Made by a program: the position numbers and the translations under genes
The notes under the pieces: model-generated
The model's database searches: none
Told to the model about the DNA's origin: nothing
What the model saw: the letters and a program-made list of their open reading frames with translations, nothing else
Part shown: positions 37,037 to 47,776 of the stretch, piece by piece
Position numbering within the stretch: position 1 is the first letter of the stretch
Layout of the letters: every line of letters begins with the position of its first letter
Source of the DNA: Sanguibacter suaedae
Lineage (GTDB): Bacteria; Actinomycetota; Actinomycetes; Actinomycetales; Cellulomonadaceae
Length of the DNA stretch: 64,000 bases
Assembly (NCBI RefSeq): GCF_016342785.1
Contig: NZ_JAEINH010000003.1
Coordinates: 1 to 64,000 of the forward strand
Reading direction: 5' to 3'

Positions 37037-40000
37037 ATGCTGACCCCGCGCGCCGCCGCCCTGAAGTCCGCCCTGTCGGAGCGCGTCGTCGTGGCGGACG
37101 GCGCCATGGGGACCATGCTCCAGGCGTCCGACCTCACCCTCGACGACTTCGAGGGCCACGAGGGCTGCAACGAGATCCTCAACGTGACACGCCCCGAGGT
37201 GGTCGAGGCCGTGCACGACGCCTACTTCGCGGTAGGCGTCGACTGCGTCGAGACCAACACCTTCGGCGCCAACTGGTCCAACCTGGGCGACTACGGGATC
37301 GACCACCGCATCGTCGAGCTCGCCGAGGCCGGTGCGCGCATCGCCCGCCGGAGCGCCGACACCCACGCCTCGGCGGACCGGCCACGCTGGGTGCTGGGGT
37401 CCATGGGGCCGGGCACCAAGCTCCCCAGCCTCGGGCACACCACGTACGCGCACCTCAAGGACACCTTCGCCCAGCAGGCCACCGGCCTCCTGCGCGGCGG
37501 CGCGGACGCCGTCCTCATCGAGACCAGCCAGGACCTCCTCCAGGCCAAGGCCGCCATCAACGGGGCCAAGGAGGCCATGGCTACCGAGGGCCACGAGATC
37601 CTCGTCCTCGTGCAGGTCACCGTGGAGACCACGGGGACCATGCTCATGGGCTCCGAGATCGGCGCGGCGCTCACGACCCTCGCGGCGCTCGGCGTCGACT
37701 CGATCGGTCTCAACTGCGCCACAGGTCCCGCGGAGATGAGCGAGCACCTGCGCCACCTCGCCAAGCACTCCACGGTCCCGGTGACGTGCATGCCCAACGC
37801 CGGGCTCCCGGTCCTCGGGCCCAACGGCGCCCACTACCCGCTCACCCCGGAGGAGCTCGGAGCTGCGCACGCCCAGTTCGTCCGGGAGTTCGGCCTGGGC
37901 CTCGTCGGCGGGTGCTGCGGCACCACGCCCGAGCACCTGCGGCACGTCGTCGAGCGCGTCGGCGGTGTGCCCGTCGCACCGCGCTCCCCCGTACCGGAGA
38001 ACGGCGTCGCGAGCCTGTACACGCACGTCGACTTCGAGCAGGACGCGTCGTTCCTCGCCATCGGTGAGCGCACCAACGCGAACGGATCGAAGGCCTTCCG
38101 GGAGGCGATGCTCGCGGAGGACTGGGACGAGTGCGTGCAGATCGCCCGCGCGCAGACGCGCGACGGCGCTCACCTGCTCGACGTGTGCGTCGACTACGTG
38201 GGACGCGACGGGGTGGCTGACGCCCGCGAGGTCGTCTCGCGCCTGGCGAGCGCCTCGACCCTGCCGCTGGTCCTGGACTCCACCGAGCCCGCCGTCCTGC
38301 AGGCCGGGCTCGAGCTCGTCGGCGGGCGCGCCGTCGTGAACTCGGTGAACTTCGAGGACGGCGACGGGCCGACGTCCCGGTACGCGCGGATCATGCCCCT
38401 GGTCCGCGAGCACGGTGCCGCGGTGATCGCGCTGACCATCGACGAGGAGGGCCAGGCGCGCACCGCCGAGAGCAAGGTCGCCATCGCATCGAGGCTCATC
38501 GATGATCTCACCGGCGCGTGGGGCATGGCGGTCGACGACATCGTCGTGGACACCCTGACGTTCCCCATCGCGACCGGGCAGGAGGAGACACGCCGCGACG
38601 CCATCGAGACGATCGCCGCCATCCGTGAGCTCAAGGCCCGGTACCCCGGGGTGCACACCACCCTCGGGGTGTCGAACGTGTCGTTCGGGCTCAACCCGGC
38701 GGCGCGCGTCGTCCTCAACTCCGTGTTCCTCCACGAGGCCGTCCAGGCGGGTCTCGACTCCGCGATCGTGCACGCCGCGAAGATCCTGCCGCTGTCGAAG
38801 ATCCCCGACGAGCAGCGGGAGGCCGCCCTGGACCTCGTGTGGGACCACCGCCGGTTCGACGACACCGGTGCCATGACCCACGACCCCCTCGCGCACCTCC
38901 TCGACCTCTTCGCGGGCGTCGACACCGCCGCCGTGAAGGACGCGCGCGCCGCGGAGCTCGCCGCGCTCCCCCTGGGTGAGCGCCTCGAGCGACGCATCGT
39001 CGACGGCGAGCTCAAGGGCTTGGACGCCGACCTCGACCTCGCGCTCACCGAGGGGATGCGCCCCCTGGACATCGTCAACGACCACCTGCTGGCCGGCATG
39101 AAGGTGGTGGGCGAGCTCTTCGGGTCCGGGCAGATGCAGCTCCCGTTCGTCCTCCAGTCGGCCGAGGCCATGAAGACGGCCGTCGCCCACCTCGAACCGC
39201 ACATGGAGAAGACCGACGAGGCGGGGAAAGGCACGATCGTGCTCGCGACCGTGCGCGGCGACGTCCACGACATCGGGAAGAACCTCGTCGACATCATCCT
39301 CACGAACAACGGGTACACGGTCATCAACATCGGGATCAAGCAGCCCGTCGCCGCGATGATCGAGGCCGCCGAGAAGCACGACGCGGACGTCATCGGCATG
39401 TCCGGGCTGCTCGTGAAGTCCACGGTGGTCATGAAGGAGAACCTCGAGGAGCTCAACGCCCGTGGCTACGCGCAGCGGTGGCCCGTCCTGCTCGGTGGCG
39501 CAGCTCTCACCCGCACGTACGTGGAGGACGACCTCGCGGACGTGTACGACGGCGAGGTCCGGTACGCGCGGGACGCCTTCGAGGGGTTGCGGCTCATGGA
39601 GCCGCTCGTGCGCATCGCACGGGGCGAGGCGCGCGACGCCGTGGGCCTGCCGGCCCTGAAGAAGCGCCGCCACGCGACGGTGACCGTCACGGAGACGGCA
39701 CCCGAGGACCTGCCGGCCCGGTCGGACGTCGCCACGGACAACCCGGTCCCGACGCCGCCGTTCTGGGGCACCCGCATCGTCAAGGGCATCCAGCTCGCGG
39801 ACTACGCCGCGTTCCTCGACGAGCGTGCGACGTTCATGGGTCAGTGGGGCCTCAAGCCGTCGCGCGGCGACGACGCCCGGTCCTACGAGCAGCTCGTGGA
39901 GACCGAGGGACGACCACGCCTGCGTGACTGGTTGGACCGCATCAAGACGCAGGACATGTTCGACCCGTCGGTCGTGTACGGGTACTTCCCCGCCGTGTCC

Positions 40001-40567
40001 GACGGGGACGACATGGTGGTGCTCCACCACGAGGGCCCTGACGGGGGCAGCGGTGGCGAGCCGGGCACCGAACGGGTGCGGTTCACGTTCCCCCGGCAGC
40101 GGCGCGACCGGCACCTGTGCCTCGCGGACTTCGTGCGACCGCGGGAGTCGGGCGAGGTCGACGTGGTGGCGTTCCAGCTCGTCACCGTGGGCGCCCGGGT
40201 CGACACGCACACGGCACGGCTGTTCGCGGAGAACCGGTACCGCGAGTACATGGAGCTCCACGGGCTGTCGGTGCAGCTCACGGAGTCCCTCGCGGAGATG
40301 TGGCACTCGCGCATCCGCGAGGAGCTCGGCTACGCCGCCGAGGACCCGGCGGATCTCGAGGGCATGTTCAAGGTGTCCTACCGCGGTGCCCGGTACTCGT
40401 TGGGCTACCCGGCGTGCCCCGACATGGAGGACCGCCGCAAGGTCATGGACCTCCTCGACGCCGGGCGTGTGGGCGTCGTGCTCTCCGACGAGCTCCAGCT
40501 GCACCCCGAGCAGTCGACCGACGCCATCGTCTTCCACCACCCGGAGGCCAAGTACTTCTCCGTATGA
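37037..40567 (+). CDS. metH: Cobalamin-dependent methionine synthase
   Basis: A 1176-residue MetH with all modules in order: homocysteine-binding barrel (residues about 1-310; zinc ligands in LNCATG and GGCCGTTP), folate-binding pterin domain (about 330-610; ERTNANGSK), cobalamin cap and B12-binding domain (about 630-880) with the DxHxxG motif at DVHDIG (His744 as lower axial cobalt ligand), and a C-terminal SAM-dependent reactivation domain (DFVRPRESGEVD; YRGARYSLGYPACPD). It methylates homocysteine from 5-methyl-THF through methylcobalamin. TAGACT 7 nt before the ATG and no Shine-Dalgarno sequence point to a leaderless mRNA. It requires B12, which gives context to the ECF operon 1 kb downstream. 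Confidence 0.97.
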   Translation: MLTPRAAALKSALSERVVVADGAMGTMLQASDLTLDDFEGHEGCNEILNVTRPEVVEAVHDAYFAVGVDCVETNTFGANWSNLGDYGIDHRIVELAEAGARIARRSADTHASADRPRWVLGSMGPGTKLPSLGHTTYAHLKDTFAQQATGLLRGGADAVLIETSQDLLQAKAAINGAKEAMATEGHEILVLVQVTVETTGTMLMGSEIGAALTTLAALGVDSIGLNCATGPAEMSEHLRHLAKHSTVPVTCMPNAGLPVLGPNGAHYPLTPEELGAAHAQFVREFGLGLVGGCCGTTPEHLRHVVERVGGVPVAPRSPVPENGVASLYTHVDFEQDASFLAIGERTNANGSKAFREAMLAEDWDECVQIARAQTRDGAHLLDVCVDYVGRDGVADAREVVSRLASASTLPLVLDSTEPAVLQAGLELVGGRAVVNSVNFEDGDGPTSRYARIMPLVREHGAAVIALTIDEEGQARTAESKVAIASRLIDDLTGAWGMAVDDIVVDTLTFPIATGQEETRRDAIETIAAIRELKARYPGVHTTLGVSNVSFGLNPAARVVLNSVFLHEAVQAGLDSAIVHAAKILPLSKIPDEQREAALDLVWDHRRFDDTGAMTHDPLAHLLDLFAGVDTAAVKDARAAELAALPLGERLERRIVDGELKGLDADLDLALTEGMRPLDIVNDHLLAGMKVVGELFGSGQMQLPFVLQSAEAMKTAVAHLEPHMEKTDEAGKGTIVLATVRGDVHDIGKNLVDIILTNNGYTVINIGIKQPVAAMIEAAEKHDADVIGMSGLLVKSTVVMKENLEELNARGYAQRWPVLLGGAALTRTYVEDDLADVYDGEVRYARDAFEGLRLMEPLVRIARGEARDAVGLPALKKRRHATVTVTETAPEDLPARSDVATDNPVPTPPFWGTRIVKGIQLADYAAFLDERATFMGQWGLKPSRGDDARSYEQLVETEGRPRLRDWLDRIKTQDMFDPSVVYGYFPAVSDGDDMVVLHHEGPDGGSGGEPGTERVRFTFPRQRRDRHLCLADFVRPRESGEVDVVAFQLVTVGARVDTHTARLFAENRYREYMELHGLSVQLTESLAEMWHSRIREELGYAAEDPADLEGMFKVSYRGARYSLGYPACPDMEDRRKVMDLLDAGRVGVVLSDELQLHPEQSTDAIVFHHPEAKYFSV

Positions 40568-40576
40568 CGGGTGGGA

Positions 40577-40954
40577 TCACGGGGCGGTGGGTGTCCCGCT
40601 GGCACCACCGCGCAGGATCGACGTCATCCTCTTGCCGCGCGCGACCTCGTCGACGAGCTTGTCCATGTACCGGATCCTCTGCATGAGCGGGTCCTCGATG
40701 TCCTCGACCCGGTGACCGCAGATGAGCCCCGTGATGAGCGTCGCGTCGGGGTTCATGGAGGGCGCGTGCTCGAAGAACGACGCCAAGTCCCTCTCGTCCG
40801 CGAGCGCCGCCTCGAGACCGGCGTCGTCGTAGCCGGTGAGCCACCGGATCACGATGTCGACCTCGTCCTTGGTGTGCCCCTTGCGCTCCACCTTCGCCAC
40901 GTAGAGCGGGTAGATGCTCGCGAAGCTCGTCCCGAAGATCCTGTGCCCCGTCAT
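40577..40954 (-). CDS. DUF2200 family protein
   Basis: A 125-residue soluble protein. The conserved N-terminus MTGHRIFGTSFASIYPLYVA, then VERKGHTKDEVDIVIRWLTGYD and HAPSMNPDATLITGLICG, identify DUF2200, a small family of unknown function that sometimes carries an annotation of cytoplasmic hydrolase-like protein. It converges on metH with a 9-nt gap. Its ATG overlaps the stop of the upstream hypothetical gene, so both come from one leftward transcript. Confidence 0.85.
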   Translation of the reverse strand: MTGHRIFGTSFASIYPLYVAKVERKGHTKDEVDIVIRWLTGYDDAGLEAALADERDLASFFEHAPSMNPDATLITGLICGHRVEDIEDPLMQRIRYMDKLVDEVARGKRMTSILRGGASGTPTAP

Positions 40955-41546: not shown

Positions 41547-42326
41547 CTACCCGAACGACGCCGGTCGCCGCGCCCGGGCGAAGGTCCCGAGGACGGGCCT
41601 GCCGAGGGCGACGACAGCGACGACGCTGGTGACGGCGCGGACGGTGTCCCAGGCGAGGGATGTGGTGAGGGTGAAGAGGAGGAACCGGCGCAGGTTCTCC
41701 CCGAGCGTTCCTCCGGGCACGTAGGAGACGGCGGTGTCGCCGCCGAGGGCGAAGGGCCAGAACCAGAGGTTCATGAGGAGCCCGAAGGCGTAGGCGGCGA
41801 GCACCGCGTACGCGGCGAGCGCTGCCAGCTCGATCGTCCCGCGCGGAGCGACCCGGCCGCGGAGCAGGTGGCCGAGGATCCCGGCTCCGAGCCCCACCCA
41901 GGCGCAGGCCAGCACCTGGAACGGCAGCCAGGGCCCGACGCCTGCGGTGAGGAGCGCGGACGCGAAGAGGGAGACGGCGCCGAGGAGGAACCCGAAGACG
42001 GGCCCGAAGGCGTACCCGGCGAGGACGAGGAGGAAGAACACGAGCTCGATGCCACCGACCCCGGCTCCGACGAGCCGCAGGGCGGCGTTCACGGCGGACA
42101 GGACGCCGAGCATGGCGAGGGTGCGGGCGTCGAGGCCGCCCTGCCCGAGGTGCAGGAGCACGACGAGGACGAGGACGGGAAGGAGGACGAGGACGAGCCA
42201 CGGGGTGCTCTGCCCTCCGCCCCTGGGCGTCACGCTCGCGACGAGGGGCCAGCAGAAGACGGCGAGCCCGACGACGCTCGTCAGGGCGAGGACCACTGCC
42301 GTGGCGCGTGGGTGGGCCACGGTCAT
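41547..42326 (-). CDS. ECF transporter substrate-binding (S) component
   Basis: A 259-residue membrane protein with about seven hydrophobic segments (starting at residues about 8 and 46). The central block (ARTLAMLGVLSAVNAALRLVGAGVGGIELVFFLLVLAGYAFGPVFGFLLGAVSLFASAL) has the fold and AxxxA-rich helix 1 character of ECF S components. In ECF importers the S protein binds the vitamin in the membrane. The substrate is not fixed by sequence. The operon also encodes ATPase, T component and two exported proteins that resemble transcobalamin halves, which favours cobalamin or another corrinoid (inference). It overlaps the ATPase gene by 4 nt and is last in the operon. Confidence 0.83.
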   Translation of the reverse strand: MTVAHPRATAVVLALTSVVGLAVFCWPLVASVTPRGGGQSTPWLVLVLLPVLVLVVLLHLGQGGLDARTLAMLGVLSAVNAALRLVGAGVGGIELVFFLLVLAGYAFGPVFGFLLGAVSLFASALLTAGVGPWLPFQVLACAWVGLGAGILGHLLRGRVAPRGTIELAALAAYAVLAAYAFGLLMNLWFWPFALGGDTAVSYVPGGTLGENLRRFLLFTLTTSLAWDTVRAVTSVVAVVALGRPVLGTFARARRPASFG

Positions 42327-43921
42327 GGTGCCTGGTCCGCTCCGAGGTAGAGGTCGGCGAGGCGCATCCACGGGCGGGGGGCCATGATCCTGGCGATCTG
42401 CGGCGCGAAGCCCGGCGAGCCGGTGAGCATGGCGCGGGCGGGTCCGTCGGCGACGATCTCGCCCTGCGCCATGAGGACGACCCGGTCGGCGAGGTCGGCG
42501 GCGAGCTCGACGTCGTGGGTGGCGACGACCACCGCGGTCCCGTCGCGGGCGAGGTCCCGCAGGCGCGCGACGAGGCTGGTCTTGGCGTCGTGGTCGAGGC
42601 CTCGGGTGGGTTCGTCGAGGAGCAGGACGCGGGGTGGTGCGGCCAGGGTGAGCGCGAGGACGAGCGCGAGCCGCTGACCCTCGGAGAGGTCGCGTGGGTG
42701 CGTCGCCCCGTCGACGTCGTCGACGAGCGTCCGCAGGAGCGCCGCCGTGGTCCCGGCGGACACACCGGCGTCGCGGTCCGAGGTGGCGCACTCGTCAGCG
42801 ACGGTCTCCAGGTAGAGGAGGTCGGTGACGTCCTGCGGGACGAGGCCCACGAGCCGACGGGCGATGGTCGGCGCGACGTCGCGGGGGTCCTGGCCACGGA
42901 CGTCCACGGTCCCTGCGTGCCGCGGGCCGATGCCGCGCAGCGCCCACAGGAGGGACGACTTGCCGGAGCCGTTGCGGCCCATGAGCGCGACGACCTCACC
43001 ACCGGCCAGGTCGAGGTCCACGGACCGCACTGCGTCGACCCGCCCGTGGCGGACGCTCGTCCCCCGTGACCTGAGGAGCACCGGTCCCGCGGGTGCCGGC
43101 GCACCGCCGAGGGCACCGACAGGCTCGATGACGGCCATCGCGGCGCGGCGTCGCGCGTCGCGCACGGAGAGCGGGACGGGAGACCAACCGAGGGCGGTCG
43201 CGAGCCGCACCACGGGTGGCGCGAGCGCCGTGCCGGGCAGGATCTCCTGGGGCGTCCCCGCCGTGACACGCCCCTCGCGCACGTGGACGACTCGGTCCGC
43301 GAGCTGGACCACCCGTTCCAGGCGGTGCTCGGCGAGGACGACGGTGAGCCCGACGTCGTGGACGAGCCGGGCAAGGGTCGCGAGGACCTCCTCGGCGCCG
43401 ACGGGGTCGAGGGCGGACGTCGGCTCGTCGAGGACGAGGACGCGGGGCCCGGCCGTGAGGACGGCACCGACGGCCACCCGTTGCTGCTGCCCCGCGGACA
43501 GCGTGTCGAGGCGCCGGTCGCGCAGGTCGGCGATGCCCACGAGGTCGAGGGTCTCCTCCACGCGGCGCCGCATGGCTGCCGGGGCGACGCCCTGCTGCTC
43601 CATCCCGAACGCGAGCTCGGACTCGACGTACGCGGTGACGAAGCCGTGGGCGGGGTTCTGGCCGACGGACCCGACGAGGTCGGCCATGTCCCGCGGGTGC
43701 GTGGTGCGCAGGGACCGTCCGGCGACACGGACCTCGCCGGTGACGTGCCCGCCCGTGCTGTGCGGGACCGACCCGTTGAGGAGCCGCAGGAGCGTCGACT
43801 TCCCCGCACCGGTGGCTCCCGCCACGACGACGAGCTCGCCCTCCTCGACGTGGAGGTCGACATCGCGGAGCACCGACGGGCCGGCGTGGTGGCGCACGCC
43901 CACGGCGGCGAGCTCGATCAC
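42323..43921 (-). CDS. ECF transporter ATPase, two fused ABC domains
   Basis: A 532-residue protein with two complete ABC domains. Domain 1: Walker A GATGAGKS (about residue 35), signature LSAGQQQRVAVG, Walker B VLVLDEPTSALDP. Domain 2: Walker A GRNGSGKS (about residue 325), signature LSEGQRLALVL, Walker B VLLLDEPTRGLDHD. Each has a Q-loop and a terminal His (EH and THD switch). Fused A1/A2 subunits energise ECF importers. It is translationally coupled to the T component upstream (GTGA) and to the S component downstream (ATGA). Confidence 0.94.
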   Translation of the reverse strand: MIELAAVGVRHHAGPSVLRDVDLHVEEGELVVVAGATGAGKSTLLRLLNGSVPHSTGGHVTGEVRVAGRSLRTTHPRDMADLVGSVGQNPAHGFVTAYVESELAFGMEQQGVAPAAMRRRVEETLDLVGIADLRDRRLDTLSAGQQQRVAVGAVLTAGPRVLVLDEPTSALDPVGAEEVLATLARLVHDVGLTVVLAEHRLERVVQLADRVVHVREGRVTAGTPQEILPGTALAPPVVRLATALGWSPVPLSVRDARRRAAMAVIEPVGALGGAPAPAGPVLLRSRGTSVRHGRVDAVRSVDLDLAGGEVVALMGRNGSGKSSLLWALRGIGPRHAGTVDVRGQDPRDVAPTIARRLVGLVPQDVTDLLYLETVADECATSDRDAGVSAGTTAALLRTLVDDVDGATHPRDLSEGQRLALVLALTLAAPPRVLLLDEPTRGLDHDAKTSLVARLRDLARDGTAVVVATHDVELAADLADRVVLMAQGEIVADGPARAMLTGSPGFAPQIARIMAPRPWMRLADLYLGADQAP

Positions 43922-44925
43922 GACGCGACCGTCCGCGACGGCCGGAGGAGGACGGGCGATCCGGCGACGATCGGGGCGACCAGCCCCGCCCACGTGAGGT
44001 CGGGGACCCTGTCCGGCGCCGGGGTCCGGATGTCCGCCGGGACGAGCGCGAGGAGGCCCAGCGCGGCGAGCACGGCACAACCGACGGTGACGTTCGCACC
44101 CAGCGTCCACGGCGTGGGTCGGTACACGGTCCGGCGGGCGGACCGGTCGAGCACGACCGCGCCACCGCCGCACAGGACCGCGCACCCGACGAACGCCACG
44201 GGGGCCCACGAGGGCCAGGCGTCGTCCAGCAGACCGTACGCGGCGAACCCGAGGAGGACGGTCGCGCCGAGCACGAGCGCCGTCTGGGAGCGCGGGCGGG
44301 ACGTGCCACGGGCCCCACCGAAGCCGCGCGCCTCCATCGCCGCGGCGAGGGCGAGCGACCGGTCCATCGCTCCTTCGAGGACGGGGACGAGGGTGCCGCG
44401 GACACCGGACCGACCGCCGCGCAGGCGGGCGGCACGACGGACGTCGTGGACGGACCGCGTGAGCTGGGGGAAGACGGAGACGGCGATGACGAGGGCGGTG
44501 GACAGTCCGGCGAGCGCGGGAGGTGCGTGCTTGAGGAGCTCGAGCGGGTCGGCCAGGCAGTGGGCGGCGCCGATGGCGAGGATCATCGCGGCGAGCTGCA
44601 TTCCTCCGCTGACGCCGGAGAGGAGGGCCTCGGCGCTGACCGGCCCGAAGAGGTGGAGAGGGCCGATGTCGACGGACGGCAGGGTGAGGACGGGCTCCCC
44701 CCGGTCGGCGGGGAACACGACGCGGAAGACGGTCCGCAGGACGACGACGGAGGCCGCGACGACGAGGTAGAGGCGGAAGTCACGGCGACGGTCCGTCCCG
44801 TGGACGGACACGACGAGTCCGACGACGGCGACGAGGAGCGCGAGGACGAGGAGGTTGGTCGTCGCGGCGGCGGCTCCGACGAGCACGAGCGCCCAGACCC
44901 ACCACGCGGCGGGGTGCACGGTCAT
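43918..44925 (-). CDS. ECF transporter transmembrane (T) component
   Basis: A 335-residue membrane protein with about five to seven helices. The two conserved coupling motifs are AARLRGG (AxRxRG-type, in VRRAARLRGGRSG) and AMEARGFGG (the second ARG motif), which contact the ATPases. These motifs define EcfT. The ATG overlaps the stop of the DUF4430-like gene. T, A and S are all in one operon, so this is a dedicated (group I) ECF system and not a shared one. Confidence 0.92.
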   Translation of the reverse strand: MTVHPAAWWVWALVLVGAAAATTNLLVLALLVAVVGLVVSVHGTDRRRDFRLYLVVAASVVVLRTVFRVVFPADRGEPVLTLPSVDIGPLHLFGPVSAEALLSGVSGGMQLAAMILAIGAAHCLADPLELLKHAPPALAGLSTALVIAVSVFPQLTRSVHDVRRAARLRGGRSGVRGTLVPVLEGAMDRSLALAAAMEARGFGGARGTSRPRSQTALVLGATVLLGFAAYGLLDDAWPSWAPVAFVGCAVLCGGGAVVLDRSARRTVYRPTPWTLGANVTVGCAVLAALGLLALVPADIRTPAPDRVPDLTWAGLVAPIVAGSPVLLRPSRTVAS

Positions 44926-45644
44926 GGTCGTCGTCCGCGGGCGACGGCGACCCCGACGAGGAGCCCGACGACGACGAGCGCCAGCACAGGGACCACAGGG
45001 AACGGGGCAGCGTCCTGCTCGGGGCGCGACGTCACGTCGGGCTCGTCGCCGGGCGACGACGCCGGCCGCGCGGCCCACCCGGACGGGAGGTCCCCGGCCC
45101 GCGCAGAGGCGGGCGAGAGGTCAGGCCCCGTGGGCTCGGCGCCGCTGGTGGCGAAGGAGAGTCCGAGGACGTCCCCGGGCGCGAGCCGGAGCTCGGTGAC
45201 GCCGACCGTCGCGTACGTCCACGCGCTCGCGTCAGCGGCGTGCCACACGGACCAGTAGGCGAGCTCCGACGGTGTGCGCGCGCAGGTCTCGCGCACGACG
45301 CCCCCGCCCGGGATCGTCACGTCCTCATCGGCTGCGGGTCGTCCGTCGACGCGGCACACGAACGCCGCCCCCCACTGCGCGGTCCCCGTGACGCCCACCC
45401 CCGCCGCGTCGAGGGCGGAGGACGCGGTCAGAGGTTCCTCCCCGGGCGCACAGCCCACGGACCCTGTTCCGTCGGCGTTCGCGAGCACGCCCAGGTCGAC
45501 GACGACGGTGACACCTTCGCACGGCTGTGGCCGGTCCTCCGCCGCGGCGCCCCCGGGCGACGCCACGGCCGCGACGGCCGCGACGGCAGCCCCGAGCACC
45601 TGCGCACGCAGGCGCGGGCCGCTCACGGGCGCCGCCGTGGGCAC
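44922..45644 (-). CDS. Exported, membrane-anchored protein with DUF4430/transcobalamin-C-like domain
   Basis: A 240-residue protein. A signal peptide (RLRAQVLGAAVAAVAAVASPGGAAAE) is followed by a beta-rich domain of about 120 residues: VTVVVDLG, ASSALDAAGV, FVCRVDGRP, a YWSVWHA motif, and GVTELRLAPGDVLGLSF near its end. The order (alpha helix plus ALDAAG, InG-type strand, YW, GDV) is that of DUF4430, the C-terminal domain of transcobalamin and intrinsic factor. A Pro/Ser linker and C-terminal helix (FPVVPVLALVVVGLLVGVAVARGRR) anchor it on the outer face of the membrane. The GTG start lies 1 nt after the upstream stop. The DUF4430 call is from pattern, not alignment. Confidence 0.6.
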   Translation of the reverse strand: MPTAAPVSGPRLRAQVLGAAVAAVAAVASPGGAAAEDRPQPCEGVTVVVDLGVLANADGTGSVGCAPGEEPLTASSALDAAGVGVTGTAQWGAAFVCRVDGRPAADEDVTIPGGGVVRETCARTPSELAYWSVWHAADASAWTYATVGVTELRLAPGDVLGLSFATSGAEPTGPDLSPASARAGDLPSGWAARPASSPGDEPDVTSRPEQDAAPFPVVPVLALVVVGLLVGVAVARGRRP

Positions 45645-45645
45645 G

Positions 45646-46689
45646 TCAGGCTCCGGCGCCGAGGACCTGCGCCAGTCCGGTCCCCGCGAGGGCGATCGTC
45701 GCCTGAGCGGTCGCCCGCGCGTCCGGTTCGCCCGCGACGGCGAACGTCCCGTCCTCACCGACCTGCCCGACGAGCCAGTCCCGCCCTGCGGAGCCGTCCT
45801 GGCCCGCGTCCTCGAGCGCGCTGACGACCACGGCGGTGCTGTTGGTGTTCGGGGTTTCCTCCCCGGAGGCGGCCCACGCAGCGCCCGAGTCCTCCTGGAG
45901 CCGCACGGAGTCCAGCCATCCCAGGGCGCGGCTCACCGTCTCGGCCTCCGGGTCCTCCCCCGCCGCGACGAGCGCCGAGACGGAGAACGCCGTGGCGTCC
46001 ACGTCGCCCTCGCAGTCGCCGTCCGGCTCGTCGGCGAGCTGCGCGGGGTAGCCCCCGTCGGTGCACTGCTGGGCTACGAGGTAGGCGGTACCGCTGGGCG
46101 TCCCCTCGCCGACGGTGCTCGACGCGAGGAGCGCCCACGCCTGGGAGACGGTGTGCGAGTAGTCGTCCGCCCCGCGGTCGCTGAACCGTCCGGTGGGCGC
46201 CTCGAGACCTTCGAGCTCGGCGACGAGATCACGGCCGTCGACGTTGCGCGGGTCGAGCCCTGCGGTGTCGAGGACGGTGACGAGCTTGGCGAGAGAGCCC
46301 GCGTAGAGGGCGTCCTGGCCGTCGCCGACATACCCGAGGACGACGTCCGGTGCGGCGAGGGCCGTCGCGAGCTCTGCGGCGCCGGCGGTGTCACCGGCGG
46401 CGGTGAGCGCGAGGACGATGTCCGCGGTGAGGCCCTGGTCGGGGTACGTGGCACCGTCGAACTCCGTCTCGACGACCTGGCCGTCGCTGAGGTCGGCGAG
46501 CCACGTCGCGGAGGCCTGCGCGTGGTCTGCCGTCGTCCCGGCGTCCGCGGACACCGAGGCGGAGGGCGCGTCGGTGCCCTCGGGGTCGGACGAGCACCCG
46601 GAGAGCACGAGGGCCACGAGGCTCGCGGTGACGAGAACGGCACGGCGCCCGGGGACGGAAGGACACGAGGTGGATCGGTGTGTCAGCAC
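45646..46689 (-). CDS. Lipoprotein with terpenoid-cyclase-like alpha/alpha-toroid repeats
   Basis: A 347-residue lipoprotein. The signal RRAVLVTASLVALVLSGC ends in lipobox LSGC. The mature part has at least five helical repeats of the prenyltransferase/squalene-oxidase type, including CTDGGYPAQ...DVDATAFSVSALVAAG, LQEDSGAAWA...NTNSTAVVVSALEDAG and EDGTFAV...RATAQATIALAGTGL. That alpha-toroid also forms the N-terminal domain of vertebrate transcobalamin and intrinsic factor. Catalytic DxDD-type residues of cyclases are not evident. First gene of the ECF operon; the GTG at 46689 follows TAGACT by 7 nt. An upstream in-frame ATG at 46737 is less likely because it adds a non-signal extension. Confidence 0.8.
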   Translation of the reverse strand: MLTHRSTSCPSVPGRRAVLVTASLVALVLSGCSSDPEGTDAPSASVSADAGTTADHAQASATWLADLSDGQVVETEFDGATYPDQGLTADIVLALTAAGDTAGAAELATALAAPDVVLGYVGDGQDALYAGSLAKLVTVLDTAGLDPRNVDGRDLVAELEGLEAPTGRFSDRGADDYSHTVSQAWALLASSTVGEGTPSGTAYLVAQQCTDGGYPAQLADEPDGDCEGDVDATAFSVSALVAAGEDPEAETVSRALGWLDSVRLQEDSGAAWAASGEETPNTNSTAVVVSALEDAGQDGSAGRDWLVGQVGEDGTFAVAGEPDARATAQATIALAGTGLAQVLGAGA

Positions 46690-46696
46690 GTCGGGA

Positions 46697-46702
46697 AGTC
46701 TA
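46697..46702 (-). promoter_or_regulatory. Leaderless -10 element of the ECF operon
   Basis: TAGACT on the minus strand lies 7 nt before the GTG at 46689. The same hexamer and spacing precede metH. The gap to the upstream acetyltransferase gene is only 64 nt, so no riboswitch fits. Confidence 0.6.
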
Positions 46703-46753: not shown

Positions 46754-47776
46754 TCACAGCTCGAGGGAGTACATCCGTGATCCCTGGACCTTGACGAACC
46801 CCAGGCTCGAGTAGAGGCCGAAGGCCCCCGAGGGGTTGTCCGCGTCCACGTCGAGCTCCGCGTAGCCCATGCCGCTCGCGGTGTAGGCACGCATGGCTGC
46901 GGCGAGGAGGGCGACGGCGATCTTCCGCCCACGGTAGGCACGTCGCACACCGAGCGTCTCGATGTACCCGGTGGTCCGTCCCGTGACCTCCCAGTCCTGC
47001 TCGTAGCGCCCCGACAGGAGGTAGCCCACGACGTAGGGGACGTCGTCGGCCTTGCTGTCGTCGACGACGACGAAGCTCCACGTGGGCGCGAACATGCTCC
47101 TGCCGTGCTGCCACGACTCGCGGGTCGCCGGCTGGCTCCCCCAGTGGTCACGGAACGCGTCGTTGTGGGCGTGGCGAGCCGCGTCGTCGAGCTGGGACGA
47201 CCAGGGCAGGACGCGGAGGCCGTCGGCGAGCGGGACGTCGAGGACGGGCTCCGAGAGGTCCCGCTGGAGGTTCGAGTAGAACCGCATGGCCCCGTACCCG
47301 GCACGCTCGAAGAGGTGCCACTGGTCAGGGGCCGTGTCGTCGAGGAAGACCGCGATCCGCCGCGGGACGTCGTCCGTCCTCTCGGCGAGCTTCTGCCGGG
47401 CCCGGGCGGTCATCCAGGCGACGACCTCCCGACCCACTCCTGCCCCACGCACCTCAGGGTGCACGCCACCCGCCAGGAAGGCCCGGATGACGGTCGTGTC
47501 CCCGGGCGGGCACTCGACGGTGCCGTAGGCGCGGAACACGCCCGCCTCGTCGATGCCCACGAGCGTGTCCCGCGCAGGGTCCTTCCAGTCACCGACGAAC
47601 TGGTCGGCGACCTCGGCCAGGGCGGTACGGTACGGCGGCTGGTCCACGCCCTCGATCGCCGAGACCAGACCGTGGAGCGCCTCGCAGTCGGCGGGCTCCA
47701 GCGCACGCCAGCGCAGCCCGAGGTCGGACGATGGCAGCGGGACGGACGCGCGCGGACGCTCGGAGGTCTTGCTCAT
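46754..47776 (-). CDS. Tandem-GNAT N-acetyltransferase
   Basis: A 340-residue protein with two GNAT folds. Domain 1 (about residues 20-180) has GGVHPEVRGAGVGREVVAWM as the acetyl-CoA loop. Domain 2 (about 185-340) has LGVRRAYRGRKIAVALLAAAMRAY, then LDVDADNPSGAFGLYSSLGFVKV. Tandem GNATs include mycothiol synthase MshD and aminoglycoside 2'-N-acetyltransferase-like proteins; the length fits but I cannot assign a substrate. The ATG is preceded by TAGGGT and exactly 6 nt. It is upstream of the ECF operon on the same strand, but separated by its own stop and the ECF promoter. Confidence 0.83.
   Translation of the reverse strand: MSKTSERPRASVPLPSSDLGLRWRALEPADCEALHGLVSAIEGVDQPPYRTALAEVADQFVGDWKDPARDTLVGIDEAGVFRAYGTVECPPGDTTVIRAFLAGGVHPEVRGAGVGREVVAWMTARARQKLAERTDDVPRRIAVFLDDTAPDQWHLFERAGYGAMRFYSNLQRDLSEPVLDVPLADGLRVLPWSSQLDDAARHAHNDAFRDHWGSQPATRESWQHGRSMFAPTWSFVVVDDSKADDVPYVVGYLLSGRYEQDWEVTGRTTGYIETLGVRRAYRGRKIAVALLAAAMRAYTASGMGYAELDVDADNPSGAFGLYSSLGFVKVQGSRMYSLEL

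Follow-up and report, generated by a model that had tools for sequence, protein, structure and literature searches.

The first 64,000 nucleotides of contig NZ_JAEINH010000003.1 from Sanguibacter suaedae (the window) carry at 41547-46689 a five-gene energy-coupling factor (ECF) operon, of a type found in many Actinobacteria, whose substrate is very probably a corrinoid. We consider it probable that the operon specifies a corrinoid importer of the dedicated group I ECF type, in which a membrane-anchored SLBB protein would serve as the core binder, a toroid lipoprotein would act as a lid where it is present, and the ligand would be handed over to the S component. Capture and import of a B12-type molecule is the most likely function because the two exported proteins are predicted to fold like the halves of transcobalamin and because many relatives carry a cobalamin riboswitch upstream of the operon. 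For a clamp formed by the two proteins wherever both exist, we see the chances as evenly balanced.

Architecture of the operon

All five genes lie on the minus strand in the order toroid lipoprotein, beta-grasp protein, T component, A1-A2 and S component; the first two are separated by 1 bp and the last three junctions each overlap by 4 bp. The SCO2321-like lipoprotein (45646-46689) begins with a signal peptide and the lipobox LSGC, followed by an alpha/alpha-toroid domain, and the SCO2322-like protein of SLBB/transcobalamin-beta type (44922-45644) has a signal peptide and a C-terminal membrane segment, these export features having been read from the sequence by eye. Behind them come the CbiQ-like T component (43918-44925), which matches Pfam CbiQ just under the cut-off (E 4.4e-5), the fused ATPases A1-A2 (42323-43921; ABC_tran, E 1.2e-50) and the S component (41547-42326). 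The latter, the substrate-specific subunit, is conserved across Actinomycetota and matches ECF_trnsprt (E 4.7e-9) and a riboflavin-type family, with no CbiM-type family among the Pfam matches listed. Judged by these matches, the assignment of the ECF parts other than T is secure, and the system, having its own S, T and A genes together in a single operon, falls into group I. A preliminary description of this DNA had recognized S, fused A1-A2 and T in one overlapping operon led by two exported proteins, which agrees with what was found: all five genes are present and could be assigned to families.

Both exported proteins are, by sequence comparison, clearly homologous to families of the NCBIfam collection despite scores below the curated cut-offs. 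The lipoprotein matches SCO2321_fam (NF053823) with an E-value of 2.7e-26 (92.4 of 300 bits) and the SLBB protein SCO2322_fam (NF040672) with 2e-6 (28.2 of 85 bits). Hidden Markov models (HMMs) of the two proteins, trained without Sanguibacter sequences on 42 rows for SLBB and 28 for the toroid, each had a single match up to E 10 among the 681 open frames of the window for which E-values were computed (E 3.1e-33 for SLBB, 1.3e-51 for the toroid). The toroid gave weak Pfam matches only (SQHop_cyclase_C, 0.0073; Prenyltrans, 0.034), the Pfam family Eukaryotic cobalamin-binding protein (PF01122) was matched by a single family member out of 49 (E 0.042), sequence searches of the PDB with single proteins returned nothing useful, and the SLBB profile had no PDB match up to E 10.

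Predicted folds and the animal B12 carriers

In one relative (L101) the two domains are naturally fused, and the 455-residue toroid-SLBB part of this fusion was modeled (pLDDT 92.1, pTM 0.82) and compared with a library of 350,542 PDB chains. Transcobalamin and intrinsic factor fill ranks 1-14 (E 4.1e-10 to 1.8e-8), with alignments of 466-487 columns that must therefore span both domains; terpene cyclases ranked after the B12 carriers, with worse E-values and higher TMq. It is by sequence relationship that the window toroid can be connected with this model.

The SLBB protein of the window was itself modeled with AlphaFold2, with a mean pLDDT of 80.8 and 13 of the 15 ten-residue blocks of residues 41-190 at 90 or above. 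Its PDB ranks 1-19 comprise 14 transcobalamin chains, three chains of intrinsic factor or haptocorrin and two of 3u7z, which is a Ruminococcus gnavus protein of putative metal-binding function. Both models predict the beta-grasp fold of the transcobalamin-like clade of the SLBB superfamily; in the window model alone, from which the positions are taken, a helix (H74-80) is followed by two strands (E85-88 and E92-99), which may or may not correspond to the B12-contacting beta-hairpin insert that comes after the helix in this clade.

Riboswitches and salvage genes at related loci

At least 55 of the 80 operon-bearing genomes have a match to the cobalamin riboswitch (RF00174) 158-1858 bp upstream of the operon and on the same strand, and 24 of the 55 upstream matches listed reach the Rfam cut-off. 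Where RF00174 is matched only once in the whole genome, as is the case in 40 genomes, that match lies upstream of the operon in 37, while the upper bound for such a placement by chance is about 0.001 per genome. The three exceptions are a genome with the operon at a contig edge (G057), one with the match on another contig (G286) and one for which the match position is absent from the matches listed and which has an AdoCbl-II match at the operon (G101). In four of the 25 genomes not counted above, the operon is still accompanied by a match: RF00174 is matched weakly in two of them and AdoCbl or AdoCbl-II in the other two; an AdoCbl match also lies at the operon of a genome outside the 80 (L060). 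The remaining 21 consist of eight genomes (the host genus together with G022 and G029) with no match genome-wide, five in which the contig breaks off within 1.7 kb upstream of the operon, and eight with no upstream match among the matches listed. Rescanning G075, G055 and G286 at relaxed thresholds did not reveal an upstream match. When eight loci were compared with all of Rfam (E<=0.1), every riboswitch family matched belonged to the cobalamin clan; the other matches, mir-610 and IRES_Bip, both fell under their cut-offs. Two genomes have additional SCO2322-like genes apart from the main one (G198:C10:64234 and G267:C16:462106), and these too follow a cobalamin riboswitch match at a distance of about 0.5 kb.

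Genes of corrinoid salvage recur downstream. From the fetched loci 101 downstream proteins were picked by a crude gene caller; the scan took in those up to 600 residues long, 92 in all, and found CobT 15 times, CobU four times and CobS once. In three of 14 genomes CobS was also found, with about 5 to 7 kb between it and the SLBB gene. GcvT (16/92) and leucyl aminopeptidase (7/92) likewise recur beside the operon.

Distribution, missing toroids and natural fusions

SCO2322_fam is matched at E<=0.001 in 125 of the 296 genomes of the class, 102 of them over the cut-off, and a search of genome contigs with the S component found at least 544 stretches that encode a relative, from which 80 loci were kept. 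Together with 60 loci chosen by SLBB, these 80 chosen by the S component alone gave 140 loci, 35 of which were dropped (under 14 kb or without an S match), leaving 105 complete loci with S present and at least 14 kb. SLBB occurs in 103 of them, accompanied by the toroid in 75 and alone in 28, while two loci have neither and none has the toroid alone. In the less biased S-chosen set, 55 of the 57 complete loci have SLBB and 44 the toroid. The SLBB HMM behind these counts was made after an inspection of motifs in six loci and trained partly on loci that it then counted; the SLBB copies of Nocardioides-type loci are diverged.

Both domains are predicted in one open frame, read from stop to stop, in five loci (L101, L104, L116, L130 and L139), and in L101 and L139 they follow the order seen in transcobalamin. 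Further variation concerns copy number, length and position. Two tandem toroid-SLBB pairs stand upstream of one ECF set in eight loci (L114, L127, L129, L133, L140, L149, L163 and L175) from Micromonospora, Dactylosporangium and Virgisporangium, some toroid proteins of Amycolatopsis and Phytohabitans (L103, L123) are of about double length, and in six Streptomyces loci (L105, L118, L126, L150, L153 and L162) the toroid gene lies downstream of S instead of leading the operon.

Proposed mechanism and alternative readings

The importer would take corrinoids, namely B12 and, in relatives with CobT, CobU or CobS, probably cobinamide-type precursors. The membrane-tethered SLBB protein would be the core extracellular binding partner, and the toroid lipoprotein, where present, would close over the ligand from the opposite side, much like its counterpart in transcobalamin. 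The S component would then receive the ligand, and T and A1-A2 would drive its uptake. The distribution, in which the toroid is never seen without SLBB and SLBB often occurs without the toroid, agrees with SLBB as the core binder and the toroid as a dispensable lid.

A number of observations weigh against this interpretation. Upstream of the operon no cobalamin riboswitch was found in the window or elsewhere in its genus: RF00174 is absent from the window, its genome, five genomes of the same genus, G022 and G029, a rescan of the window and of four Sanguibacter loci at relaxed thresholds uncovered no riboswitch either, and among the 55 upstream matches listed for relatives 31 fall under the Rfam cut-off. 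The six host-genus genomes, G022 and G029 all encode the B12-independent MetE. None of the S components of solved structure was matched by the S profile in the PDB (E<=1). The best E-value of the window SLBB model is 0.018, with none below 0.001, which is weak, the probabilities of the first three matches being 0.96-0.99. The toroid family profile matches squalene-hopene cyclase in the PDB (E 2.2e-25), the terpene cyclases thus being matched by sequence, and B12 carriers are absent from its 49 PDB matches up to E 10; with the fusion model, TMq is 0.34-0.39 for transcobalamin and up to 0.49 for terpene cyclases. The same model deviates from transcobalamin by about 20 A (root-mean-square deviation), which means that the relative placement of its two domains is unlike that in the B12-bound animal carriers; as a matter of detail, the predicted domain orientation differs. 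The toroid is not recognizable in 28 of the 105 complete loci, and of the 21 genomes in which the fetched locus had no toroid, 20 lack any SCO2321_fam match at E<=0.001, the exception (G167) having a weak match elsewhere in the genome. A two-part clamp therefore cannot be the general mechanism and is optional at best. Two details of the preliminary description, a shared TAGACT signal (see below) and DUF4430 identity, also had to be given up. The DUF4430-like pattern of ALDAAG, YW and GDV is indeed present in the SLBB protein, but Pfam DUF4430 (PF14478) matches neither this protein at E<=1 nor any of 45 family members at E<=0.1.

The preliminary description had proposed that the two exported proteins are the halves of a transcobalamin feeding a corrinoid importer. 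This holds insofar as the riboswitch linkage, the cob neighbors, the fusions and the structure matches all point to it, and it fails as a universal clamp. A comparison of models with transcobalamin, which had been suggested as a check, led to a similarly divided result: the fusion and SLBB models both match B12 carriers, but the domain orientation differs and the E-values of the SLBB model are weak.

The most serious alternative, to which we assign a somewhat less than even chance, retains the corrinoid importer and does without a clamp: SLBB alone would capture the corrinoid, and the toroid would have another job, such as taking corrinoid from other binders or docking to the cell wall. The presence of SLBB in nearly all complete loci (103/105, part of them having been chosen by SLBB), the toroid-free loci, the dependence of the toroid on SLBB and the domain orientation of the fusion model are in line with it, while the natural toroid-SLBB fusions, the tandem pairs of Micromonospora and Dactylosporangium and the transcobalamin fold match across both domains argue for a joint function. 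An importer of another vitamin or of a lipid-derived molecule, with the toroid as an enzyme related to terpene cyclases, would account for the squalene-hopene cyclase match and the higher TMq of the cyclases, yet we regard it as very improbable. The preliminary description had named co-occurrence with a different vitamin pathway as grounds for abandoning the corrinoid, and what the related loci display are riboswitch families of the cobalamin clan only (in the eight loci compared with Rfam) and cob genes as salvage neighbors. Similarly remote is a CbiMNQO-like cobalt importer under B12 control, for which the CbiQ-like T component and the control of cobalt transporters by cobalamin riboswitches, as described in the available text of PMC3766115, could be cited, but the S component matches ECF_trnsprt and a riboflavin-type family instead of a listed CbiM-type one, the extracellular domains are predicted to fold like B12 carriers, and CbiC and CobS were not found in the host genus, leaving no sign of B12 synthesis for cobalt to feed.

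Host metabolism and flanking genes

The gene for the B12-dependent methionine synthase, metH (37037-40567, plus strand; TIGR02082, 1403.7 bits), lies beside the operon but outside it, and its product is a likely user of the imported corrinoid. In the eight riboswitch-free genomes searched (six of the host genus plus G022 and G029, so that genus, family and order of the host are all represented), neither CbiC nor CobS was found, nor was methylmalonyl-CoA mutase. Since CbiC, CobS and the mutase were not found while MetH and MetE are both present, the host probably scavenges B12, possesses one or more enzymes that need it and also has a B12-free alternative.

A TAGACT box (46697-46702, minus strand) stands 7 bp before the start codon of the lipoprotein gene and is a probable -10 promoter element; we take it to be an ordinary -10 box, and if position 46689 is the start, the lipoprotein transcript would be leaderless. 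TAGACT-N7 occurs three times in the 64 kb on both strands, twice at 7 bp before a start codon, and the box is kept in five Sanguibacter relatives (once as TAGAAT) at 44 to 136 nt before candidate starts. The preliminary description had seen in it a start signal shared by metH and the operon. It does precede both genes, but as a B12-specific signal it was rejected because of its -10-like character and its spacing in the relatives.

Directly upstream of the operon lies a gene for a double-GNAT acetyltransferase that is weakly mycothiol-synthase-like (46754-47776, minus strand), and it keeps this place in G022 and five other genomes of the genus Sanguibacter. A DUF2200 protein (40577-40954, minus strand; E 4.7e-49) is encoded between metH and the operon.

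Comparison with known systems

Transcobalamin, intrinsic factor and haptocorrin combine an alpha/alpha toroid with a beta-grasp domain, as do L101 and L139 in a single frame and in the same order, and the animal B12 carriers are the first PDB matches of both predicted models. In contrast to these carriers, the window has the two parts as separate proteins, each tethered to the surface and coupled to an ECF importer, the toroid is optional in the operon type, no sequence match was found, and the predicted domain orientation is unlike theirs. The two exported proteins are diverged relatives of SCO2321_fam and SCO2322_fam, the names of which give no function. Slightly short of an even chance, in our estimate, is the more far-reaching proposal of a widespread actinobacterial split transcobalamin, in which two tethered proteins would enclose a single corrinoid between them and deliver it to S and the single-chain versions would be bacterial counterparts of animal transcobalamin. 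If this were true, the phylum would gain a B12 capture system and an ECF importer with extracellular corrinoid-binding partners, the single-chain toroid-SLBB versions would bear on the origin of the animal B12 carriers, and a tractable bacterial model would be at hand in which to study how the toroid and beta-grasp domains of animals acquired their grip on B12.

An ECF-type B12 importer with biochemical proof is ECF-CbrT of Lactobacillus delbrueckii, which also takes cobinamide; according to the available text its ECF module serves several S components (PMC5997447), whereas the operon described here is dedicated. In freshwater acI Actinobacteria, an ECF module behind cobalamin/AdoCbl riboswitches was proposed in 2017 to form cobalamin transporters in strains without B12 synthesis (PMC5301498). 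Likened without a gene-by-gene comparison, this module is probably of the same operon type; the available part of that account makes no mention of exported binding proteins. Within the open-licence literature, most subscription journals lying outside this scope, the exported proteins of the operon were not found treated as B12 binders in Actinobacteria.

The closest precedent is the transcobalamin-like SLBB clade of Gram-positive bacteria, described as exported, often fused to a toroid and encoded in operons with CbiO- and CbiQ-like genes, for which a role in scavenging B12 was proposed, along with the idea that the animal carriers came from bacteria (Burroughs et al., 2007; PMC1796856). In the available portion of that study the clade is assigned to low-GC Gram-positives, planctomycetes and euryarchaea, not to Actinobacteria; compared with it, the operon described here has the domains usually in separate genes, includes an S gene and adds the riboswitch linkage. 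Since B12 scavenging by SLBB-toroid proteins has been proposed, and a riboswitch-linked ECF module and an ECF B12 importer have been published, the operon is a variant of a known principle, already predicted by Burroughs et al. (2007), and what is new in it is a form that is usually split, ECF-linked, actinobacterial and tied to riboswitches.

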